Positions 2,225-39,270 of a DNA stretch of 39,270 nucleotides are shown piece after piece. The notes beneath the pieces were generated by a model. That model did no database searches. It was not told the origin of the DNA and saw nothing but the letters and a program-made list of their open reading frames with translations. The first letter of the stretch is position 1. Each line of letters starts with the position of its first letter. The translations under genes were made by a program, and so were the position numbers. This stretch comes from Methanobrevibacter sp. Lineage in GTDB: Archaea; Methanobacteriota; Methanobacteria; Methanobacteriales; Methanobacteriaceae. The stretch covers positions 1-39,270 of the forward strand of contig NZ_JAFUHT010000059.1 of the NCBI RefSeq assembly GCF_017468685.1, read 5' to 3'.

Positions 2225-2490
2225 TTTTCACCATTCACTCTTGCTTCCCATTCTTTATCTTCTTCTTCAAGAATTTCTAATAATTCTTCCCAAGCTTCTA
2301 AAGATTCTTTAGCAGCTTCTTCAGTTAATTTTTCTATAGCAAAACCAGCATGTATTAAAACATAATCTCCAACTTCAACTTCAGGCAATAAATCCAATTT
2401 TGCTTGTTGTCTAGCTCCACCAAAATCAGCAATTAAAAAATTGTCTTCTCTGTTAATTTCTAAAACATGAGCAGGTGCTGCAATACACAT
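2221..2490 (-). CDS. hypC: HypC/HupF hydrogenase maturation chaperone
   Basis: This 89-residue protein starts MCIAAP, and the cysteine at position 2 is the invariant HypC residue that, with HypD, carries the Fe(CN)2CO group during [NiFe]-hydrogenase assembly. The small beta-barrel part (residues 1-55, with GGARQQAKLDLLPEVEVGDYVLIHAGFAIEKL-like family features) is followed by an acidic helix typical of the family's C-terminus. GGAG lies about 10 nt before the ATG. No other hyp gene is in the window, so its partners must be encoded elsewhere. The gene is convergent with the ACT regulator and shares its terminal bases. Confidence 0.93.
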   Translation of the reverse strand: MCIAAPAHVLEINREDNFLIADFGGARQQAKLDLLPEVEVGDYVLIHAGFAIEKLTEEAAKESLEAWEELLEILEEEDKEWEARVNGEN

Positions 2491-2569
2491 AACTATCTAT
2501 CTCCAAAATTTAATATATATTAATAATTAAATGTTAGTATTATATAAAACTATCTACATAGGTGTTAAG

Positions 2570-3871
2570 ATGAAAAATATTGTTATTGGATCAGGACCTG
2601 CTGGAAGGCTAGGATCATTGGAACTTGGAAAATTGGGAGAAGAAGTGACTTTAATTGAAAAAAAACATATTGCAGGAACTTGTTTAAATGAAGGATGCAT
2701 GGTTGTTTGTGCATTAACTGACATTACTAAATTTATTGATGAAAACCGACGATTCAATAGCTACGGATTTATTAAAAGCCAAATGGATGTTTCATATGAA
2801 AAAATTGTTGAAAAAATCACTGAAACACAGGAAAAACTGAGATACCTGAACCAGTTGGAAAATGAAAGTGTGGGCAATAACGTTATCTATGGCGAAGCAA
2901 AAATTGAGGGCGAACAGGTCATAGTCAATAACGAAACATATGAATGGGACAATTTACTAATTGCAACTGGTGCTCGACCTTTCATTCCAGAAGTTCCAGG
3001 TAAAGACTATGGATTGACCAATAAGGATATTTTAAAACTTGATGATGTCCCTGAAAAATTAAATATAATTGGCGGAGGAATCATTGCCTGTGAAATAGCA
3101 AATATTTATGCAACACTGGGCAGTGAAGTAAATGTTATTGTGAGAAGCACATTTTTAAAAGAGCTCAGTGAAGCCACTAAAAAATATGTTCTGGAAAATA
3201 TTATCCCAAATGTCAATGTATTGGAAAATACCTCTGTTGAAGAAGTGTTTAAAGATAAAATTTTAACAAGTGACGGTAAAGAATTAGAGGGAATTCCATT
3301 TTTTGCAACAGGAAGGGTTCCAAATAGTGAAATTGCAGAAGGTTTTGTTGAGTTGAATCCTGACAAAACAATTAAAGTTAATGAAATGATGCAAACTGAT
3401 GTTAGTAATGTATATGCTGCAGGTGATGTTACTGGAGGATATCAATTGACACCAGTAGCTAGAATGGAGGGCATCACAGCTGCAAGAAATATGGCTGGCT
3501 ATGCAAATAAAGTAAGCTACAATTGCATTCCTCAAACTTTGAGTCTGAACACTGAAGTGAGTTTTGTGAAAAATGAAAAATCAGAACTAACCGATGATGA
3601 AAAGGCAACAATTGCAATACCTGGAATTGCCGGACCTGGTGCATTCTGGAAAATACTTGAAGGAAAAACAGGCTACACTGAAGTGGAATTTGACAAGAAC
3701 AAAAATAAGATCAATAGAATTAATTCCATTTCCCCATCTTCAACAAGCGATGTTGCATATCTGTCCTATCTGATGAGAATGGATTATGATTTGGATGATT
3801 ACAGTGAATTTTTAGAAATACACCCATCAACCGATACAAACTATAAAATAATAAAAAATATGTGGCTATAA
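2570..3871 (+). CDS. Dihydrolipoamide dehydrogenase-like flavoprotein disulfide reductase
   Basis: From the ATG at 2570 (preceded by GGTG) the product has 433 residues; a longer frame from 2531 lacks a ribosome site. It has the architecture of class I pyridine-nucleotide disulfide oxidoreductases. An FAD Rossmann motif (GSGPAG, near residue 7) comes first, then the redox pair C38/C43 in GTCLNEGC, an NAD(P) motif (IIGGGIIACE) and a second FAD motif (YAAGDVTGG). The dimerisation domain ends with HPSTDTNYK. Two family positions differ from true lipoamide dehydrogenases: the usual PSK after the second cysteine reads VVC here, and the glutamate of the HPxxxE catalytic pair is missing. Substrate therefore unknown; no lipoate-dependent complex gene is nearby. 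Confidence 0.8.
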   Translation: MKNIVIGSGPAGRLGSLELGKLGEEVTLIEKKHIAGTCLNEGCMVVCALTDITKFIDENRRFNSYGFIKSQMDVSYEKIVEKITETQEKLRYLNQLENESVGNNVIYGEAKIEGEQVIVNNETYEWDNLLIATGARPFIPEVPGKDYGLTNKDILKLDDVPEKLNIIGGGIIACEIANIYATLGSEVNVIVRSTFLKELSEATKKYVLENIIPNVNVLENTSVEEVFKDKILTSDGKELEGIPFFATGRVPNSEIAEGFVELNPDKTIKVNEMMQTDVSNVYAAGDVTGGYQLTPVARMEGITAARNMAGYANKVSYNCIPQTLSLNTEVSFVKNEKSELTDDEKATIAIPGIAGPGAFWKILEGKTGYTEVEFDKNKNKINRINSISPSSTSDVAYLSYLMRMDYDLDDYSEFLEIHPSTDTNYKIIKNMWL

Positions 3872-3876
3872 TACCA

Positions 3877-4926
3877 CTATTTAACTCTTTTTAGAATATC
3901 ATCAGCCAGATTATCAGCTGCATTCAGACACTGTTCACCATAAACCAGAGCTTTTTCCTGCAATGAGTCATAGTTTTTGAATGCTTCCTGAATGCTTTCA
4001 TAAACATCATCTACACTAGATTCAATCATGGCCCCCTTAAACACTCCAGCCATGTTCTGATATCTTCCCCATTTGACACGGGCAAGAGCCACAATAGGTT
4101 TTCCATTGGTGAATGCCTCTTCCAGTGAAACACCATCATCAGTTAAAACAGTCAAGTCAGCGAACTTGAACAGGTGATTAATCCAGTCAATATAACCTGC
4201 ATAGATTATTTTATTTTCATCAATAAGTTCACCATATTCCTCTTTTAAAGGCAAACCAACCAGAACAAGATTGTACTCATCGGTTTTATCAGCAACGATG
4301 TTTATTCCATCAACCATTCCCTTAAAGATAGAAGAACCTGAAGAGAACACAATTGTTTTTTTGTTTTCATCAAAATTAGAGTATTCCTTTAGTTTTTGAA
4401 GTGCAATATCCGGATCTCCATCACCCATATTGTCTGCTAAAGGATAAAATGCCTTATCCATATTTTTAGGTAATGTTTCCCATCTGAACTTATCCAGTTC
4501 AGGCAGAATATAACAGTGATTAAATTTAGGACAAACTTTTGAATCCAAAGGTGTTGATATTAAAGAAAATGTAGGTTTGCGAGCAACTTTACCTCCAAGT
4601 GATGCGACAATAGCTCCTCCACCTAAAACTCCTACAACAAAATCAACTTTTAGTTTTTTAATGAGACTTCTAGCTTTAAATGTAGCTGTGAATAATTTAG
4701 CTGCACCTTTTAAAGCAGATAATTTAGTGGCAGAATGTCCTCCGGCATGAGGAACAGAAATCCTATGCCAAGAATATCCGTGCTTTTCAAATAAAGAGCC
4801 GTGAGCAGATGCATCAAGAGCGATTTCACATTGAACTCCCTTTTTTTCCAATGCCTTCATGGCATTTAATGCAGTCATTGCATCTCCACCTAGCCCTCTT
4901 CCTGTGACTATAAATAAACATTTCAT
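3877..4926 (-). CDS. MurG-like glycosyltransferase
   Basis: The start chosen is the ATG at 4926 (MKCLFIVTGRGLGGDAM), which follows a GTGAT ribosome site; an upstream extension to 4998 would overlap the preceding gene. The 349-residue product has two Rossmann-like halves of the GT-B fold. A glycine-rich N-terminal loop (TGRGLGGD), a mid GVLGGG loop and a C-terminal donor-site region (TDDGVSLEEAFTNGKPIVAL) recall MurG and related UDP-sugar transferases. It starts 4 nt after the MraY-like gene. This suggests a two-gene unit adding a sugar to a lipid-linked precursor, plausibly of pseudomurein. The exact acceptor is inferred. Confidence 0.75.
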   Translation of the reverse strand: MKCLFIVTGRGLGGDAMTALNAMKALEKKGVQCEIALDASAHGSLFEKHGYSWHRISVPHAGGHSATKLSALKGAAKLFTATFKARSLIKKLKVDFVVGVLGGGAIVASLGGKVARKPTFSLISTPLDSKVCPKFNHCYILPELDKFRWETLPKNMDKAFYPLADNMGDGDPDIALQKLKEYSNFDENKKTIVFSSGSSIFKGMVDGINIVADKTDEYNLVLVGLPLKEEYGELIDENKIIYAGYIDWINHLFKFADLTVLTDDGVSLEEAFTNGKPIVALARVKWGRYQNMAGVFKGAMIESSVDDVYESIQEAFKNYDSLQEKALVYGEQCLNAADNLADDILKRVK

Positions 4927-20114: not shown

Positions 20115-21016
20115 ATTGAATGTTCTCTTTTAAATTCCTGAAGATATTGCCTAGAACAACCTGTGAGCCTTTGAATAGACTCGTCGTCAACAGATTCATT
20201 CAGCATGTTGAGGATAATCTCATCTTTAGAAATTTTAATACCATCTTTTTTACCCTCTTTAATACCTTCTTTAATACCTTCTTTCATCCCATAATCAAAA
20301 CCTGAATTGAATTCATAGTCTCTCTCAGCTTGGATGAAAATATCTTCAACAGACATTTGCATATCTACCACCTTATTTAACATATCTTGATCCTTTTTGG
20401 ATTTAACAGAATTTTCTATCTGATAAGAAATTAATGAATCTATTATTACCCGTCTAGATTTTTCGATATAATCAATTTCATCTAGAATAGCACAGACTCT
20501 TTTCACAATTTCCTCCTTATCTGCATTTTTGACCGACAAAGCTACGAATATTAACGTCAATTCATCTTCAATAGAGATGCATTCGTTGTCTTTAACTTTG
20601 ACTTCAATATTATTTAATTTTTTGGTCAAATGCATATTCTGAAGATATCGAATTATTGGAGCAAACACTATACTTCTGCCGATTTTAATTGACTCTTCAC
20701 ATAAATCAGGATTTGCAAAACTGATAATGAAACTATCAACTATTTTACCTGTTTGGGCAGATTTCAACTTATTGTACTCCCAAATTTTTTTCAGAGTATC
20801 CTTATCTATTTTTTTAAATTCGAATTCCCAATTCTCCAATGTATCGTCATCAACAAGAACCAACTTATCAAGTCGTTTATATGAACCTTGAAGAGTTTGA
20901 ACTTCAGTTTCCATCTCCCGAATAATCTTTTTATATTCCTGAAAATATTTTTTAAAATCGTCCTTATACGTTGAAAATGAAATTTTTGATGTTTTATCAT
21001 ACAAACCCTCGATCAT
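20108..21016 (-). CDS. Rpn/PD-(D/E)XK nuclease-like protein
   Basis: The 302-residue protein resembles archaeal and bacterial Rpn-type recombination-promoting nucleases, a PD-(D/E)XK group often annotated as putative transposases. A candidate catalytic set is D50 (RLDKLVL) with E64/E66 and K68 in WEFEFKK. A helical C-terminal half ends in glycine/lysine heptad-like repeats (YGMKEGIKEGIKEGKKDGIK, about residues 238-258) and a short tail with LTGCSRQYLQEFK, typical of this family. It probably cuts DNA, but its role here is unknown. It stands alone between two convergent or divergent neighbours and has no obvious partner gene. Confidence 0.65.
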   Translation of the reverse strand: MIEGLYDKTSKISFSTYKDDFKKYFQEYKKIIREMETEVQTLQGSYKRLDKLVLVDDDTLENWEFEFKKIDKDTLKKIWEYNKLKSAQTGKIVDSFIISFANPDLCEESIKIGRSIVFAPIIRYLQNMHLTKKLNNIEVKVKDNECISIEDELTLIFVALSVKNADKEEIVKRVCAILDEIDYIEKSRRVIIDSLISYQIENSVKSKKDQDMLNKVVDMQMSVEDIFIQAERDYEFNSGFDYGMKEGIKEGIKEGKKDGIKISKDEIILNMLNESVDDESIQRLTGCSRQYLQEFKREHSIE

Positions 21017-31021: not shown

Positions 31022-31720
31022 TTAAATGAGTAAAATTCCGACAATTGCTCCCACAATAGTGGCGATTAAATTGACATGTTCATTGGTCATGAATCCATGA
31101 TTTTCAAACACTGCTCCCAAAATACTGTCCATAAAGCAACCTACAGTTCCGGAAACAACTGAAACAAGAATTGCTGAAACGGGACTTGGCACAATACCTA
31201 ATAAAAAGGCAGCAATACCAATTATTGCAGCTCCCACAATACCTACTGCAGTTCCTAAAACTGAAACCGCACCGTTGGTACCTGGATCCACACTTTGAAG
31301 AGTGGTGATTAACCTTGGATGTGCATCAAGCACTCCGATTTCAGATGCCAATGTATCGGAAGTAGCTGTTGCGATTGCACCGATGAATCCTCCAACAAAC
31401 GGCAGGTAATAACCCCCGAATGCTGCCATGAAACAGGCAACAACACCATTTGAGATAACGTTTTTAGAAGTTCTTCTTCCTTCAAACTCCCCTAAGGACA
31501 TCTTATATTTCTTAGAGTATTTTGTAGCGATAAGTGACATGACAAGGAAAAGCACAATCAAAACAAGCCAATTGACACCCGCTGAAAAAATAATTATGAT
31601 ACCCATAATAATCATGACAGCTGAACCGAATAAATCAAGAGATTTCCTTCTGTATGTAATGAAACCTAAAATAAATAAAAGAATTACATAAACCCAATTA
31701 ATCATTACCGCTTCAACCAT
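31022..31720 (-). CDS. DUF92/TIGR00297-family membrane protein
   Basis: The product has about six hydrophobic segments and 232 residues when started at the ATG at 31720, which follows GTGAT; a GTG at 31729 lies inside that site. Family-like stretches are EFEGRRTSKNVISNGVVACFMAAFGGYY, ATATSDTLASEIGVL and GTNGAVSVLGT. DUF92 proteins include plant VTE6, a phytyl-phosphate kinase, so a role with polyprenyl phosphates is conceivable. No archaeal function is assigned here. It appears to be a single gene with a TATA-like element at about 31758-31765. Confidence 0.82.
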   Translation of the reverse strand: MVEAVMINWVYVILLFILGFITYRRKSLDLFGSAVMIIMGIIIIFSAGVNWLVLIVLFLVMSLIATKYSKKYKMSLGEFEGRRTSKNVISNGVVACFMAAFGGYYLPFVGGFIGAIATATSDTLASEIGVLDAHPRLITTLQSVDPGTNGAVSVLGTAVGIVGAAIIGIAAFLLGIVPSPVSAILVSVVSGTVGCFMDSILGAVFENHGFMTNEHVNLIATIVGAIVGILLI

Positions 31721-32036
31721 GATTATCACATTCTTATTTAGTTAATATTTGTTTAAAATTATATAAATAAGTTTGTAAAGTTGATTGGCCAATCCGTCCA
31801 ATTATATGAATTTTCACATGCCGGACCATATTTGAAAAATAGCTTGAGAAAAACTATCAAAATAAATGAAATAACAATTAATTATATTAAAATAAATTTT
31901 GAAACCATGACAATTATAAAACAATCATTTAATTAAATTGTTTTGTGCGATTTTAATTAAAAAAAAGAACTTGATAATCTACATCAACTAATAAAAAAAG
32001 AAGAAAAAGATAGGAAGATGAACTTCCCCTTTCTAT
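31721..32036. other. Intergenic region between DUF92 gene and adhesin
   Basis: No gene is seen. Near the DUF92 start a TATA-like TTTATATAA lies on the minus strand. AAACAAT/ATTGTTT (about 31919-31942) and overlapping TTAATTAA repeats form weak A/T-rich inverted repeats. The right end carries the adhesin terminator. The middle shows nothing I can interpret. Confidence 0.55.
32001..32027 (-). terminator. Terminator of the adhesin gene
   Basis: Read on the minus strand after the adhesin stop, GGAAG-TTCAT-CTTCC (32027-32013) forms a 5-bp hairpin. It is followed by the T/C-rich run TATCTTTTTCTTCTTTTTTT. This resembles an intrinsic terminator. Confidence 0.55.
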
Positions 32037-35000
32037 TTATTTAACTTTCACTTTACCTTTGACAATGTTGGTTAAATACTTAGCAGAGTAAGCGTATTTC
32101 TTACCCTTCTTGAGTTTTTTGGTAACTTTTTTCTTGATAGTGACTTTTGCAATACCTTTGGAATTGGTTTTAGCTTTATAGGTTTTACCTTTGAATGTGA
32201 ATTTAATGATCTTACCTTTGATAGGTTTACCATTGCTCCATTTAAGTTTTGCTTTAAGCACTAATTTCTTACCTTTTTTAACTTTAACAGTCTTTTTAAC
32301 CAATTTGAGAGTTTGTTTTACAACAAGTTTGTTAGACACTTTAGTGTTTTTATATTCTGCAGTAATTGTGTATTTGCCAGGGTTTAAGTTGAGTTTAAGT
32401 CTTGCATAACCGTTTGCATCGGTTCTGCAGGAGTAGTGGATAGTGTGCACATAAATGTCAACAAACTCACCTTCGCCCACAGGTTTACCGTCATCACCAA
32501 TTGCCCTTACAGTGTAATAGGTACCGTCAACAAAGTCCATTGTAATATCCTTGTTTTCAATTAAACGTTTTACAATAGTTGTTGTAGCAGTACGTTCCTC
32601 ACCAGTTACAGGATTGATAATTGTTACATCATATTTACCAACTGCCAATTTAGAAGTGTCTAAGAAAGCAATTCCTTGACTGTCTGTTTTTACAGTGTAT
32701 GTTTTACCGTTGACAGTGAATTGAACATCAGTGTATGGAAGCACATGACCATTCTTATCTAGGAACTCTGCTTTATAATCGTATGGACTGTTCCATCCTC
32801 TAGTAATGTTTTCAGCAATTACTGATTTGAACACTTTTACAGACTTGGTAATATCCTGAGGATTATATTGGTCATTACCGCTGTAGGAGATATTCACATC
32901 ATGGGTTCCTTCGCTCACACCAGGAATTGAGATTATGTTTTCTCCACCGGTTACAGGAGCAGTTACAGTTATATTGTCTACAGTGACTGTAACGTTACCG
33001 TCTCCACCTTCAGGAACAATCACTTTAACTTTCACATCTTCTCCAACAGGCACATTGTCAACTTCAGCTCCAATATTAGGTGAAGTCTTGTTGCTTGAAA
33101 TGTGGAAGTCTTTGGATGTAGAGTTTCCTAGGTATTTTTCATCTCCAAGGTAAATCACATTAGCTGTGTAGTCTCCAGTGCCCTTGATTGGAATTGTTAC
33201 TGATTTTTCACCAGCAGTAAGGTTGATTCCATAATCTGTTCCAGCCACATTGACCACTACATAACCTGTTGCATCCTCTGGTAGGGTTACGGTTACTGTA
33301 GCTTGACCGTTAGTGGAGTTGTCCACTTCAACAGAGATTGGAGCAGGGTTTTTGTCAACTGTGAAGTCTGCAGTGGTTGCATTTGCAAGGTATGAGTCGT
33401 CACCATCATATATTGCGGTAACTGTCTTGTTGCCTGAAAGCAATCCGGTTATTTCAAATACTGCTTTGCCATCAACAGGTTTTTTGGAGTATGTTTTACC
33501 ATCAATTTCAACTGTTACATTTCCAGTGACATTTTCAGGAACATTTACAGTCACTTCAATGGTTTCACCAACTTTACCTCCAGTCACTTCAATGCTCATT
33601 GGAGTTGCATGTTTAGGAATTGTAACTTTGCCGTCTGTGGATTGGCCTTTGTGGTTTTCATCACCGGAGTATGTTGCAGTTATATCATGGGTTCCAGGAG
33701 TCTCATTAGTCAAGTCAAATGTAGCAGTTCCGTTAACAATAGGAGAAGTGTAGTTATTTCCGTCGATAGTGACTGTCACATTACCTGTAGCGTTTGCAGG
33801 AACAACGACAACTACTGTACCGTTTCCTTGGTCAATGACCTTAATGTCATCAGGGCTGGTTTCAGCAGGTTTGACTGACAGTGGAGTAGTTGTATTTGCA
33901 GGCAAGTACTTGTCATCACCATTATAGGTCACTTTAACCTCATAATCTCCAACAGGAACGCCAGGAACAATAATCTCATTTTCACCGCCGGTAATAGGAA
34001 CGGTTCTTGTGATATTTCCAATAGTTACAGTCACATTACCAGTAGCATCTTCAGGAACAGTAACCTTAATCACAGCAGGATCACCAACAGTGATGTTATC
34101 TGCGCTAGCACTGATTTCAGCATCGGATACCTTATTGACAATTACTTTAGCAGTGTCGTTTGAACTGGATAAGTACTTGTCATTTTCAAGGAGTGTTACT
34201 TTAACATCGTATGTTGCATTAGCAAGTCCATCTACTTTGAGTTGGCCTGCACCATTGGTTACATTTACACTGTAGTCTTTACCGCCAATAGTTACAACAG
34301 CAGTTCCGTTGAAGTCACTTGGACCAGCAATAACAATTGTTGCGGTTTCATCAACCTTAATCACATCACCAGTGACATTTACGCTTGATGCCACTTTATC
34401 TACTTTGAATTGAGCAGTAGTTGAGTTTGCAAGATACCAGTCATCACCGGCGTAGCTTGCAACAACTGTCTTGTTGCCTACAGTTAATCCTTCAATTTCA
34501 AAGACTGCCTTACCATCGACAGGTTTTACTGAGTAAGTTTTACCATCAATTTCAACAGTTACGTTTTCAGTTACGTTTTCTGGAACAGACACTATCACTT
34601 TAGTGATGTTTCCAACAGCACTAGCATTAACTTCAATGGAGATTGGAGTTGCATATTTTGGAATTGTCACAGTTCCGTTTGCAGCTGCAGCAGTGTAGTT
34701 TTCATCACCGGAGTATGTTGCGGTAATGTCATAGGTTCCAGGAGTCTCATTAGTCAAGTCAAATGTAGCGGTTCCGTTAACAACAGGAGAAGTGTAGTTA
34801 GTTCCGTTGATTGTAATGTTTACGTTACCAGTTGCATCTTTAGGAACAACAACCACAACAGTACCATTGCCTTGATCAATCACTTTGATGTCAGCCGGAT
34901 CGGTTTCAGCCGGTTTGACTGACAGTGGAGTAGTTGTATTTGCAGGCAAGTACTTGTCATCACCATTATAAGTCACTTTAACCTCATAATCTCCAACAGG

Positions 35001-38000
35001 AACACCAGGAACAATAATCTCATTTTCTCCACCAGCAATAGGAACAGTTCTTGTGATATTTCCAATAGTTACAGTCACATTGCCAGTAGCATCATCAGGA
35101 ACAGTAACCTTAATCACAGCAGGATCACCGACAGTAATATTATCAGCGCTTGCAGTGATTTCAGCATCAGCCACTTTATTTACAAGCAATTTAACTGTAT
35201 CGTTGACGCTTTGGAGATACTTGTCATTTTCTAAGTAAGTTACATTAATATCATATGTGCCGTTAGCGAGTCCGTCGACTTTAAGCTGACCTACACCATT
35301 TGTCAATGCTACGCTGTAGTTCATGCCGTTCACATTAACAACAGCAGTACCGTTAAAGTCACTTGGACCTGTAATGTCAATAATTGCAGTTTCATTTACA
35401 TTGATTGGGTCTACAGTTACGTTTACGCTTGAAGCACTTTTAGTTATATTGAATGAAATAGTTGAACTATTTCCATAATATTTGTCATTTTCATATACTG
35501 TAGCTGTAACTGTGTATTCACCAGCAGGCAATTTAGTAGTATCCACAACAACCTTGCCGTCAACAACTGAGTATTCTTTACCGTTGATTGTTACAACAGC
35601 GGCAGTGTTGTTTGTTAAGGTTATTTCGAATTCATCACCGACATAGTGAGTTGAAATATCATCAACTTTTACTGTTGAGTTATGTTTGATTACTGTAAAC
35701 ATTGTTGAGTTTGAAGCTTGAGTGTAGTAATCGTTTTCAGCAACTTCAGCAGTAATTGTGTAATTGCCAGCAACAGTGCCGTTGAAGCTGTATACTCCTC
35801 CAACAGGAGTTACAACAACACCGTTCACTTTGACAACCAAAGTGGAATTACTGTTGGTAGTGACAGTGAAAGTCAAGTTGTTGTCGATTTCAATAATCTT
35901 ATCAGCAGTGATAATCACAGTAGCTGTGGTTTTGTTAACAACACTGAATTCATCACTTGTTGCATTTACTGGGTTGTATTTGTCATCACCTAAGTAGTAA
36001 GCCTTAGCAGTGTAATCTCCAACCGGCAAGGTTACATTTAATTCTGCAACTTTATCAACAATAGGAACTGTGTAGTTGTGTCCGCCAACTTCAATGATGA
36101 CAGATCCGCTAGTTACATTACCCATAGTCACAGTAATTGTAGCTTCCTTACCAACAACAACATCGACACTAGGAACAACAACACTATCAATTGTAGCATT
36201 GTGTTTAATGATGTCAAACTCTTTTGTTGTAGTATTAGCATAATATTTATCGTTTTCAGCGATTGTGGCAGTGACAATGTAGTGTCCTGCAGGTAATTCC
36301 ACAGTGTTTACATTGACTTTACCATCAACAACAGGATATTCCTTACCGTTGATTGTTACAACAACAGCAGTGTTATTTGTAATTGTAATTGTGAAGTCTG
36401 ATTCAATTTCATATACTTTGCCAACATCAATAGCCACAGTTGAATTGTGCTTAATCACAGTAAATACTGTGGAGTTAGTTGCCGCAGTGTAATAATCATT
36501 TTCAGCAACCTCAGCAGTAATAGTGTAATTACCAGCAACAGTTCCGTTGAATCTGTATTTACCATCTGCACCTTTGACAACTTCAACACCATTCACTTTA
36601 ACAACCAATGTAGCGTTACTGTTAGTGACAACTGTGAAAGTTAAGTTGCTGTCAATTTCAATAATGCTGTCTGCTGTGATATTCACAGTAGCGATTGTCT
36701 TATTGATTACATGGAATGCATCGCTTACTGCACTAGTAGCATTGTACTTGTCATCACCAGGGTAGTATACTTTAGCGGTGTAGTCACCGACTGGTAATGT
36801 TACAGTTAAAGTTGCCACACCTTCTTTAATAGGTACGGTGTAGTTTAATCCATTAACTTCAATTAGGACGTTGCCGGTTTCAGCATTAGCCATTGTAACT
36901 GTAATGGTAGTATTATGACCGTCTACTGCAGTCACAGGAGTTACAACAACACTTTCGATTTCACTAGCATGTTTGTAAACAGTGAAGACGGTGGAGTTTT
37001 CAGCGGCAGTGTAATAATCGTTTTCAGCAACTTCAGCAGTGATTGTGTAGTTGCCTGCAACAGTTCCGTTGAAGCTGTAAACGCCTCCAACAGGAGTGAT
37101 TTCAACACCATTCACTTTAACAACCAAAGTAGCATTACTGTTGGTAGTAACAGTGAATGTAATGTTATTATCGATTTCAACACTAGTGTCGGCAGTGATA
37201 TTTACCCAAGCAACAGTCTTATCAACAACATAGAAAGTGTTGCTGGTAGCATTGGATGCATTATACTTGTCATCACCTAAGTAGTAAGCTTTAGCGGTGT
37301 AGTCACCAGCAGGTAAAGTCACATTCAATTTAGCAACATGATCTTTAATTGCAACTGTGTAGTTGACTCCGTTTACTTCAATAATTACACTACCGGTTTC
37401 ATTGTTAGCCATAGTGACTGTTATTGTAGTGTTTTTGCCGACTACAACACTTTCTGGAGCTGCAACCACAGTCATGTCTGATGCCTTCTTGACTATGTTG
37501 AATGTTTTTGAAGTTGCATTTGCAAAGTATTTGTCATTTTCAGCCACGCTAGCAGATACTATGTATTCACCAGCAGGCAATTTAGTTGTATCAATTATGA
37601 TATTTCCATTTGTATCAATTAAGTATGATTTACCGTTAATTGTTACATTAACAGCAGTATTATTTTCGATTGTAATATTGAAAATGTCTCCAACGTAATA
37701 TTGTAAGCCAACAGTAATATTTACGCTTGAAGCACGTTTTGTAATGTTGAATGAAATAGTTGAGCTATTTCCATAATATTTGTCATTCTCATAAACTGTA
37801 GCTGTAACAGTGTATTCGCCAGCAGGAAGTTTAGTAGTATCAACAACAACTTTACCGTCAGCAACTGGATATTCCTTACCGTTGATTGTTACAACAACAG
37901 CAGTGTTATTTGTTACATTTATTGTGAAGTTGTCTCCAACATAATGCAGTGGGATTTCATCGATGCTTACAGTTGAGTTATGTTTGATAACAGTAACTGT

Positions 38001-39270
38001 GGTTGAGTTGAATCCTTCATAGTAATCATCAGTTTCAGCAGATCTTACAATTATTGTTGCAGTTCCTGCGACAGTTGCGTTGTAAGTGTATTTGCCGTCT
38101 TTAATTTCAACAGTCACTCCGTTTACAGTCACATTCACAGGAGTTGAATTGGTTACGGTGAATGTAATGTTGTTATCCACTTCGATTATTTCAGGAGCGT
38201 TGATAATTATTGTTGGAATTTCTTTATCTTTTACAGAGAATTCATCGCTTGTTGCATTTACAGGGTTGTACTTGTCATCACCTAAGTAATATGCTTTAGC
38301 GGTGTAATCACCAACAGGCAAGGTCACATTCAATACAGCAACCTTATCAACAATAGGAACAGTGTAGTTGTGTCCACCAACTTCAATAATGACAGATCCA
38401 GAAGTCACATTACCCATAGTTACAGTTATGGTTGCATTCTTGCCAACACCGACATTTACACTTGGAACAACAATGCTTGCGATTGTAGCATTGTGTTTAA
38501 TGATGTCAAACTCTTTAGTAGTTGAGTTAGCATAATACTTATCGTTTTCAGCGATTGTAGCGGTTACAATGTAGTGTCCTGCAGGTAATTCTGCAGTGTT
38601 TACATTGACTTTGCCGTCCACAACAGGATATTCTTTACCGTTGATTATAACAACAGCCGCAGTGTTATTTGTAATTGTAATTGTGAAGCCAGATTCGATC
38701 TCATAAACTTCTCCAACAGTTATTGAAACAGTTGAATTATGCTTGATTACTGTAAACATTGTTGAATTTGAAGCCGCTGTGTAGTAATCGTTTTCAGCAA
38801 CCTCAGCAGTAATAGTGTAGTTGCCTGCAACAGTGCCGTTGAATCTGTATTTACCATCAGCACCTTTAACAACTTCAACACCATTCACTTTAACAACCAA
38901 AGTAGCATTACTATTAGTAGTAACAGTGAAAGTCAAGTTATTGTCAATTTCAATAATGCTATCTGCTGTGATATTTATCCAAGCAACAGTCTTATTAATT
39001 ACATGGAAGACATCACTTACTGCATTAGTAGCGTTGTATTTATCATCACCAGGGTAGTAAACTTTAGCAGTGTAATCATCGACAGGCAATGTTACAGTTA
39101 AAGTTGCAACACCCTCTTTAATAGGAACTGTGTAATTTAATCCATTAACTTCAATTAAGACACTGCCAGTTTCAGCATTAGCCATAGTAACTGTGATTGT
39201 AGTATTATGACCATCAACAGTAGTCACAGGAGTTACAACAACACTTTCAATCTCACTAGCATGCTTGTAA
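32037..39270 (-). CDS. Giant adhesin-like surface protein with Ig-like repeats, N-terminus beyond window
   Basis: The frame is open from the right edge to a stop at 32037, giving 2,410 visible residues; the GTG at 39227 is only an internal codon. The sequence is a chain of Ig-like beta domains of about 85-95 residues with recurring GDYTAKxYYxGDDKYN and VAENDYYTAASNST blocks. N-x-S/T sites are very frequent and I saw a single cysteine (SCRTDANG). The last three domains differ: two carry TDSQGIAFLD or TDANGYARL motifs, and the final 95 residues are lysine-rich (KKGKKLVLKAKLKW to YLTNIVKGKVKVK). It matches the adhesin-like proteins of Methanobrevibacter, thought to be exported and wall-bound. 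Ligand unknown. Confidence 0.9.
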   Translation of the reverse strand, partial: YKHASEIESVVVTPVTTVDGHNTTITVTMANAETGSVLIEVNGLNYTVPIKEGVATLTVTLPVDDYTAKVYYPGDDKYNATNAVSDVFHVINKTVAWINITADSIIEIDNNLTFTVTTNSNATLVVKVNGVEVVKGADGKYRFNGTVAGNYTITAEVAENDYYTAASNSTMFTVIKHNSTVSITVGEVYEIESGFTITITNNTAAVVIINGKEYPVVDGKVNVNTAELPAGHYIVTATIAENDKYYANSTTKEFDIIKHNATIASIVVPSVNVGVGKNATITVTMGNVTSGSVIIEVGGHNYTVPIVDKVAVLNVTLPVGDYTAKAYYLGDDKYNPVNATSDEFSVKDKEIPTIIINAPEIIEVDNNITFTVTNSTPVNVTVNGVTVEIKDGKYTYNATVAGTATIIVRSAETDDYYEGFNSTTVTVIKHNSTVSIDEIPLHYVGDNFTINVTNNTAVVVTINGKEYPVADGKVVVDTTKLPAGEYTVTATVYENDKYYGNSSTISFNITKRASSVNITVGLQYYVGDIFNITIENNTAVNVTINGKSYLIDTNGNIIIDTTKLPAGEYIVSASVAENDKYFANATSKTFNIVKKASDMTVVAAPESVVVGKNTTITVTMANNETGSVIIEVNGVNYTVAIKDHVAKLNVTLPAGDYTAKAYYLGDDKYNASNATSNTFYVVDKTVAWVNITADTSVEIDNNITFTVTTNSNATLVVKVNGVEITPVGGVYSFNGTVAGNYTITAEVAENDYYTAAENSTVFTVYKHASEIESVVVTPVTAVDGHNTTITVTMANAETGNVLIEVNGLNYTVPIKEGVATLTVTLPVGDYTAKVYYPGDDKYNATSAVSDAFHVINKTIATVNITADSIIEIDSNLTFTVVTNSNATLVVKVNGVEVVKGADGKYRFNGTVAGNYTITAEVAENDYYTAATNSTVFTVIKHNSTVAIDVGKVYEIESDFTITITNNTAVVVTINGKEYPVVDGKVNVNTVELPAGHYIVTATIAENDKYYANTTTKEFDIIKHNATIDSVVVPSVDVVVGKEATITVTMGNVTSGSVIIEVGGHNYTVPIVDKVAELNVTLPVGDYTAKAYYLGDDKYNPVNATSDEFSVVNKTTATVIITADKIIEIDNNLTFTVTTNSNSTLVVKVNGVVVTPVGGVYSFNGTVAGNYTITAEVAENDYYTQASNSTMFTVIKHNSTVKVDDISTHYVGDEFEITLTNNTAAVVTINGKEYSVVDGKVVVDTTKLPAGEYTVTATVYENDKYYGNSSTISFNITKSASSVNVTVDPINVNETAIIDITGPSDFNGTAVVNVNGMNYSVALTNGVGQLKVDGLANGTYDINVTYLENDKYLQSVNDTVKLLVNKVADAEITASADNITVGDPAVIKVTVPDDATGNVTVTIGNITRTVPIAGGENEIIVPGVPVGDYEVKVTYNGDDKYLPANTTTPLSVKPAETDPADIKVIDQGNGTVVVVVPKDATGNVNITINGTNYTSPVVNGTATFDLTNETPGTYDITATYSGDENYTAAAANGTVTIPKYATPISIEVNASAVGNITKVIVSVPENVTENVTVEIDGKTYSVKPVDGKAVFEIEGLTVGNKTVVASYAGDDWYLANSTTAQFKVDKVASSVNVTGDVIKVDETATIVIAGPSDFNGTAVVTIGGKDYSVNVTNGAGQLKVDGLANATYDVKVTLLENDKYLSSSNDTAKVIVNKVSDAEISASADNITVGDPAVIKVTVPEDATGNVTVTIGNITRTVPITGGENEIIVPGVPVGDYEVKVTYNGDDKYLPANTTTPLSVKPAETSPDDIKVIDQGNGTVVVVVPANATGNVTVTIDGNNYTSPIVNGTATFDLTNETPGTHDITATYSGDENHKGQSTDGKVTIPKHATPMSIEVTGGKVGETIEVTVNVPENVTGNVTVEIDGKTYSKKPVDGKAVFEITGLLSGNKTVTAIYDGDDSYLANATTADFTVDKNPAPISVEVDNSTNGQATVTVTLPEDATGYVVVNVAGTDYGINLTAGEKSVTIPIKGTGDYTANVIYLGDEKYLGNSTSKDFHISSNKTSPNIGAEVDNVPVGEDVKVKVIVPEGGDGNVTVTVDNITVTAPVTGGENIISIPGVSEGTHDVNISYSGNDQYNPQDITKSVKVFKSVIAENITRGWNSPYDYKAEFLDKNGHVLPYTDVQFTVNGKTYTVKTDSQGIAFLDTSKLAVGKYDVTIINPVTGEERTATTTIVKRLIENKDITMDFVDGTYYTVRAIGDDGKPVGEGEFVDIYVHTIHYSCRTDANGYARLKLNLNPGKYTITAEYKNTKVSNKLVVKQTLKLVKKTVKVKKGKKLVLKAKLKWSNGKPIKGKIIKFTFKGKTYKAKTNSKGIAKVTIKKKVTKKLKKGKKYAYSAKYLTNIVKGKVKVK
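33348..34391 (-). repeat. Four-domain repeat unit, 1,044 bp, copy 2
   Basis: This is the second copy of the 348-residue block, starting at ASSVNVTGDV and ending at FTVDKN. It is nearly identical to copy 1 in the second and third domains (ADNITVGDPAVIKVTVP and KVIDQGNGTVVVVVP) and more diverged in the first and fourth. Confidence 0.85.
34392..35435 (-). repeat. Four-domain repeat unit, 1,044 bp, copy 1
   Basis: A second repeat register lies C-terminal to the long units. GGCAAGTACT occurs at 34945 and 33901, TCAGGAACAG at 35095 and 34051, and ACGCTTGA at 35425 and 34381, all 1,044 bp (348 codons) apart. The unit holds four Ig-like domains, starting at ASSVNVTVDP and ending near FKVDK. Confidence 0.85.
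35422..36978 (-). repeat. Long tandem repeat unit, partial second copy
   Basis: This block pairs with 37720-39270. The distance is 2,292 bp over most of its length and 2,298 bp at its lower end (TTTACGCTTGAAGCAC at 35422 and 37720), so one 6-bp indel has occurred. The most changed stretch is the domain that reads NKTTATVIITADKIIEIDN here and DKEIPTIIINAPEIIEVDN in the other copy. Most other domains differ by only a few residues. Confidence 0.8.
36979..39270 (-). repeat. Long tandem repeat unit, 2,292 bp (copy nearer the N-terminus)
   Basis: Matching landmarks in the adhesin gene recur exactly 2,292 bp (764 codons) apart. Examples are TCACTAGCAT at 39253 and 36961, TATTATGA at 39203 and 36911, and CCTAAGTA at 38281 and 35989. 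This copy reaches the window edge and may continue beyond it. Similarity to the next copy is traceable from 39270 down to about 37720; the rest of the unit (about 36979-37720) holds domains not repeated in the other copy. Confidence 0.85.

Follow-up and report, generated by a model that had tools for sequence, protein, structure and literature searches.

The window, by which we mean the whole stretch of DNA that was analysed (39,270 nucleotides), is the entire contig C59 of a Methanobrevibacter genome of 2.28 Mb in 94 contigs. At its right end lies the 3' part of a giant gene of the minus strand, whose frame runs off the end of the contig, so that the start of the gene lies outside the window (Table 1). 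The encoded part consists mainly of Ig-like domains, which Pfam recognised as Big_3_5 with 433 bits in 14 stretches. The domain types A to I, with the variants b and c, are labels coined in the present analysis. In these terms, the outer (distal) array of the gene reads ABAB ABC AbC c AB ABC ABC, while the inner, wall-proximal array consists of D-E-F-G twice and is followed by H, I and the lysine-rich C-terminal region. Within this last region a Big_1 match was obtained at residues 2320-2384 with 23.7 bits, which is below the cut-off of 34.9. In the ALPs of M. ruminantium M1, a C-terminal region named M1-C, with weak homology to Big_1 (PF02369) in the last ~200 residues, is described as a proposed means of cell wall attachment (PMC2812497). 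By its sub-threshold Big_1 match, the C-terminus of our protein is a candidate for an anchor of this kind.

Table 1. Features of the giant gene and of its downstream neighbour, in window positions.
Feature	Position	Strand	Remark
ORF of 2,410 residues, 3' part of giant adhesin-like protein gene	32037..39269	-	5' end beyond contig end
Nine-domain-lag block, copy 1, domains 13-18 (A B C A b C)	37743..39269	-	
Domains 19-21 (c A B)	36978..37742	-	between both block copies
Nine-domain-lag block, copy 2, domains 22-27 (A B C A B C)	35445..36977	-	
Domain 17, type b	37989..38231	-	sole non-matching domain of the 764 block
348-codon block D-E-F-G, copy 1	34401..35444	-	
348-codon block D-E-F-G, copy 2	33357..34400	-	
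E domain of D-E-F-G copy 1	34917..35186	-	
E domain of D-E-F-G copy 2	33873..34142	-	
Single Ig-like domains H and I	32832..33356	-	adjoining the anchor
Lysine-rich C-terminal region, candidate wall anchor (M1-C-like)	32040..32831	-	weak Big_1 match
52-base end common to the end of contig C51	39219..39270	-	assembly break inside the array
DUF92 membrane protein gene	31022..31729	-	conserved downstream neighbour, synteny anchor

Two minor repeats occur elsewhere in the window. A 12-base tandem repeat of about four copies lies inside a minus-strand frame of 302 residues (20234-20292), and short AT-rich tandem repeats with periods of 21 and 23 lie upstream of a tRNA-Ile gene (1261-1402).

The probable continuation of the gene on a second contig, and its family

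The gene appears to continue on contig C51, whose last 52 bases recur, in frame, at the start of the gene strand on C59; within 3 mismatches, this string occurs in the genome at these two contig ends and at no third place. The joined C51 and C59 reading comprises ~5,725 residues with ~40 Ig-like domains, and since the contig break falls at a repeat, copies may be missing there. On the C51 part, a signal-like hydrophobic stretch (judged by eye) follows the start codon, which is codon 32 of the frame. The same part contains Chlam_PMP beta-helix-type repeats (123 bits), whose N-terminal position depends on the join of C51 and C59, as well as Big_3_5 domains (338 bits, 12 stretches). Asn and Thr account for 11.0% and 11.9% of the 5,725 residues, against 3.4-5.5% for each in three neighbouring proteins. 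Contig C51 also carries two smaller tandem ALP genes of 669 and 652 residues (G000:C51 28277-32453; L045 8277-12453), the first 12 residues of which are nearly the same, a case of local gene duplication.

Judged by its sequence, the protein is a Methanobrevibacter adhesin-like protein (ALP) of the RBH + ABD type, and it is from homology that we infer an adhesin and speak of its reach or binding. ALPs are believed to attach methanogens of the rumen and gut to partners that produce hydrogen. In subgroup IA of the ALPs, described from Methanobrevibacter and Methanosphaera, archaeal Big domains come after beta-helix domains (PMC11532034). As portrayed in that paper, its members resemble our protein in the N-terminal signal or membrane segment, the right-handed beta-helix-type repeats and the many Big-type domains of ~85-90 residues, and they are likewise very long and Asn/Thr-rich (PMC11532034). 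The treatment given there concerns repeat domains and clades, whereas multi-domain blocks and block number at an orthologous locus are the features of our gene. In the passages on ALPs of the open-licence literature (PMC11532034, PMC2812497, PMC8727293, PMC13135261, PMC5467289), neither multi-domain blocks nor a change of block number between orthologues was found.

Block repeats within the gene

A preliminary description of this DNA had placed the best self-matches of the gene at offsets of 764 and 348 codons, and both values turned out to be exact. Among all offsets from 20 to 2199 in the 2,410-residue frame, 764 ranked first and 348 second, with identities of 26.5% and 21.5% against a median over offsets of 8.3% (robust z 18.4 and 13.3, respectively). 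The self-alignment of the DNA has the corresponding peaks at 2,292 bp (rank 1, robust z 11.6) and 1,044 bp (rank 2, robust z 9.4). At offset 764, residues 1-373 match residues 765-1137 without gaps (90% identity), and over residues 420-520 the offset shifts to 766 (84% identity); at offset 348, residues 1278-1625 match residues 1626-1973 (80% identity). Expressed in domains, 764 is a lag of nine, with identities of 94, 92, 90, 93, 49 and 86% for domains 13-18 against 22-27, and 348 is a lag of four, with 69, 94, 79 and 73% for domains 28-31 against 32-35. The 764 repeat is broken by domain 17 (type b), and as this domain matches its partner at just 49% the copies are mosaics. In addition, the A/B/C array has a finer layer, formed by AB dyads and ABC triads, to which the protein offsets 429, 256 and 173 (ranks 3, 4 and 5) belong. 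The two scales had been regarded as nested; they are instead two arrays lying side by side and made of different domain families.

Three domains lie between the two copies of the 764 block. Over five of their six domains the copies are 91% identical, with dS ~0.69 and dN 0.056, the b/B pair being excluded (dS 2.07, values above ~1 being near saturation and usable as ranks only). The corresponding figures for the D-E-F-G copies are 79% identity, dS 0.68 and dN 0.144. The low dN relative to dS between the 764 copies (0.056/0.69) indicates that the copies are under constraint, and the high dS (~0.7) that they are not recent. At four-fold sites, the copies within our gene have reached 0.59-0.62 of saturation. 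The E domains of the two D-E-F-G copies have a dS of 0.28, while those of the neighbouring domains range from 0.72 to 1.43, the upper end again serving as a rank. Local gene conversion has probably homogenised this pair.

Array length and recombination at the orthologous locus

The DUF92 gene lies directly downstream of the giant gene and is present in 60 of 67 genomes of the genus at the threshold used. Its upstream side was taken in 52 of them, which together with our own genome gave 53 rows; the genomes with DUF92 outside this upstream survey are G009, G019, G026, G037, G040, G054 and G056. At least one domain match was found in 30 of the 53 rows. In genomes other than our own, G064, G023 and G049, only the last same-strand frame of at least 200 residues upstream of DUF92 was typed, so absence there may reflect a missed gene; among the rows with no domain match, G016, G022, G051 and G061 had no frame typed because the available sequence was at most 2.1 kb. 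Orthologues were mapped in two ways, by plain identity domain by domain and by class models. The latter were built from our gene, G064 (M. thaueri), G023 and G049, and the model-based domain strings are thus not independent of this choice, whereas the plain-identity mapping is.

Beside DUF92, the A/B/C-type domains number 19 in our gene, 15 in G023, 33 in G064 and 7 in G049, and the D-E-F-G blocks 2, 2, 2 and 1, respectively; the comparison is across species with one genome for each, and the counts, coming from draft assemblies, are provisional. They may be wrong in G064, where the identical repeats exceed typical short reads, and in our gene, where the array spans the contig break. The four close orthologues differ by whole units (AB, ABC, DEFG). 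According to plain identity, domains 13-27 of our gene map one-to-one onto domains 5-19 of G023. The array of G036, which is cut by a contig end, reads EFG DEFG DEFG. In species of the genus that are less closely related, nothing beyond F-G-like pairs could be recognised, and these are present one to about ten times. Genomes assembled into a single contig have block-scale lags too: a lag of 3 was seen in both G002 and G007, one of 10 in G004, and lags of both 4 and 10 in G008.

A few further observations concern this locus. The DUF92 gene has one in-frame stop in G064 (C24:119729-120430), G023 (C76:16526-17227) and G011 (C17:5135-5830), where the gene is possibly decaying or the stop is an error. 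Between DUF92 and a phosphoglycerate mutase gene, a second giant ALP gene is present in G064 (C24:100969-119562; 6,198 residues) and G023 (C76:17392-33471; 5,360 residues) and absent from that place in the window; judging by these arrangements, the spot beside DUF92 gains or loses whole genes too. Contig C206 of G019 (L046, record RGIG4352) has a length of 9.8 kb, most of which matches the window at 100% identity. It was considered as a second strain and rejected, G019 also carrying its own 80% copy of the flank. Probably C206 comes from the species of the window and contaminates the G019 MAG.

Diagnostic sites and trees mark the one D-E-F-G block of G049 as a hybrid of copy 1 and copy 2, such as unequal (deletion) crossing-over would leave. 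The sites scored were those that distinguish the two copies consistently across three species. In the F domain of the block, 10 of these have the state of copy 1, 0 that of copy 2 and 1 neither; in its G domain, 3 agree with copy 1, 20 with copy 2 and 3 with neither (Fisher p 3e-6, and p 3e-8 to 8e-6 when one parent species at a time is used). Trees placed F (0.955) and D (0.966) with copy 1 and G with copy 2 (0.996), with no resolution for E; the sites of the D part are mixed, though mostly of copy 1 (26 vs 16). As a control, copy 2 of G023 was itself found to be mixed in F (10 copy-1-like vs 11 copy-2-like sites), and with G023 as the sole reference the G domain of G049 shows no preference for copy 2 (38 vs 37 sites). 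Unequal rates in the copies can produce part of the hybrid look. In several neighbouring units of G064, some domains agree at 100% in their DNA (pairs 26/31 and 24/34), and the domains next to them stand at 84-90%; a recent unit duplication or conversion leaves this pattern, though identical stretches of such length can also be mis-assembled. The c domain of G049 was also considered as a possible c/C hybrid and second crossover product, which would explain a loss of eight domains; its first third is c-like and the rest mixed.

The preliminary description had also held that multi-domain blocks were copied as units and that the array changes length by recombination. Across species, this is supported by the domain numbers, the hybrid block and the near-identical blocks. 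A constant unit number together with high synonymous divergence had been named there as evidence to the contrary; the divergence is indeed high, but the number is not constant.

Exchange between species has also left its mark on the gene. On C51, ~2 kb of it (L044 ~2230-4030) is 97.7-100% identical to G049, with a shoulder of 91-96% on one side, whereas most of the rest is ~65-87% identical; in nucleotide identity, the tract shows recent inter-species recombination inside the gene. Furthermore, at four-fold sites the array of our gene stands at 0.53-0.60 of saturation against G023 and G064 (0.60 for G023), a level like that between its own copies. In the same species pairs, p4 of three flanking genes is 0.46-0.57 (saturation 0.632), and that of the protein's own C-terminus between species is 0.435-0.469 (saturation 0.549). 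The array is therefore less diverged between species than flanks and C-terminus, which points to more exchange or homogenisation within it. At first, the 15-domain layout shared with G023 seemed to place the duplication before the species split; given the lower synonymous divergence of the array, inter-species exchange may also account for this layout.

Both the C51 tract and the low divergence of the array would be expected if the differences in length came mainly from the exchange of whole gene segments between species, and not from recombination between copies within a gene. We regard this as possible but doubtful, as both the hybrid D-E-F-G block and the identity of adjoining units in G064 are outcomes to be expected when copies inside one gene interact. 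A frozen duplication, in which the blocks arose once in an ancestor and have diverged independently ever since, would make the shared layout a matter of inheritance and would leave no length device operating today. It agrees with dS between the copies of our gene being equal to dS between species, with the one-to-one correspondence to G023 and with positional classes that form cross-species clades in several trees. It seems unlikely to us, however, given that domain number varies among the four orthologues, that neighbouring units are identical in G064 and the E domains homogenised in our gene, and that the array is less diverged at synonymous sites than its surroundings, which suggests continuing exchange. 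An assembly artefact, by which the collapse or multiplication of repeats from short reads would render the blocks and the species differences spurious, is very improbable: it is true that the window ends inside the array at the overlap with C51, that many syntenic loci elsewhere also end at a contig end within the ALP gene and that the identical G019 contig begins inside the gene near the same point, but the 764 block copies differ at ~15% of bases, far beyond assembler invention, the joined gene has no repeated 99-mer, the 15 domains of G023 and the 7 of G049 lie inside single contigs, and block lags exist in single-contig genomes as well.

Interpretation of the block architecture

Blocks, block numbers that differ among the assemblies compared, a hybrid block, homogenisation of the E pair and inter-species exchange are what the comparison of sequences has shown. 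In our reading, which we hold to be probable, the giant ALP stalk grew and shrank by recombination, the unit being a set of two to four unlike domains (AB, ABC or DEFG). The proposed layout of the protein comprises a signal peptide, a right-handed beta-helix region, an Ig-like stalk and a probable wall-binding C-terminus. Homologous copies lying out of register would recombine, so that whole units would be gained or lost with the reading frame and the order of domain types left intact. The most likely function of the array, suggested by homology, is that of a stalk between wall anchor and beta-helix region, holding the latter away from the wall. The length of this stalk, set by the number of units, may be a trait under selection, as in the bacterial Periscope Proteins.

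One ABC unit was modelled on the basis of four window sequences, and the predicted structure is all beta (mean pLDDT 78, pTM 0.53). Among its PDB matches are Ig triplets of titin as well as SiiE and GhpA, which are adhesins of bacteria; identity is low, 8-18% in the matches listed. In titin, a multi-domain unit of dissimilar beta-sandwich Ig and FnIII domains is repeated as a block. These super-repeats resemble the blocks of our gene; titin is an animal muscle protein, and no common descent is implied.

In the Periscope Proteins (SasG, Rib, Sgo_0707), the repeat number of surface stalks is reported to be changed by homologous recombination (PMC8201768, PMC9704523). As described there, they share with our protein a stalk of repeated folded domains, by which in their case an outer functional region is projected. 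However, their neighbouring repeats are highly alike, while in our protein neighbours are ~30% identical and the recombining unit consists of two to four dissimilar domains. Identity of the Periscope type is seen between the copies of the 764 block (91%), approximately between those of DEFG (79%) and not between neighbouring domains. Moreover, the Periscope Proteins vary between strains, whereas our protein is archaeal and its variation was seen between species, with one genome each. The word archaea is absent from the main texts of PMC8201768 and PMC9704523.

Large multidomain proteins usually keep neighbouring domains below 50% identity, a rule that, in the account of PMC8201768, the Periscope Proteins break. 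The mean identity of neighbours in our protein is 30%, with none of the 37 pairs above 60%. In 40 related ALPs, picked either for their similarity to our protein or from the DUF92 side, none of the 956 pairs of neighbours reached 60% identity, while 37.5 would be expected on shuffling of the domain order and the lowest of 2,000 permutation sums was 17; 15 pairs were at least 50% identical, with 56.4 expected. A segment-based count with no domain calls, made in 45 proteins, found similarity at an offset of one domain in 2,615 of 143,204 residues and at larger offsets in 14,016 to 34,152. The former lay mostly in a protein of G028, which has too few recognised domains for the test of 40 ALPs.

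A genus-wide rule that neighbours must differ was rejected, since in single-contig genomes (nine proteins from four genomes, overlapping partly with the set of 40) 12 of 295 pairs were at least 60% identical and 9.6 were expected. One protein of G008 has 8 of its 16 neighbouring pairs at or above this level. As the single-contig control lends no support, dissimilarity of neighbours is at most a property of the subfamily to which our protein belongs. Part of it may need no selection, for a crossover between like domains leaves the order of types as it was in any case. It is thus a tentative proposal on our side that the block architecture itself is an adaptation, in which units of two to four domains vary the length of the stalk with similar domains hardly ever adjacent. 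If true, two demands would be satisfied together, that for recombinable DNA repeats and that for unlike neighbours as a safeguard against misfolding.

For genome studies, it follows from the frequent breaks of short-read methanogen assemblies inside ALP genes that the repeat counts and ends given there are not to be trusted. If archaeal stalks do change their length by multi-domain blocks, this would be a measurable and variable surface trait in methanogens. It would also offer a natural test of whether the dissimilarity of neighbours limits the growth of repeat proteins.
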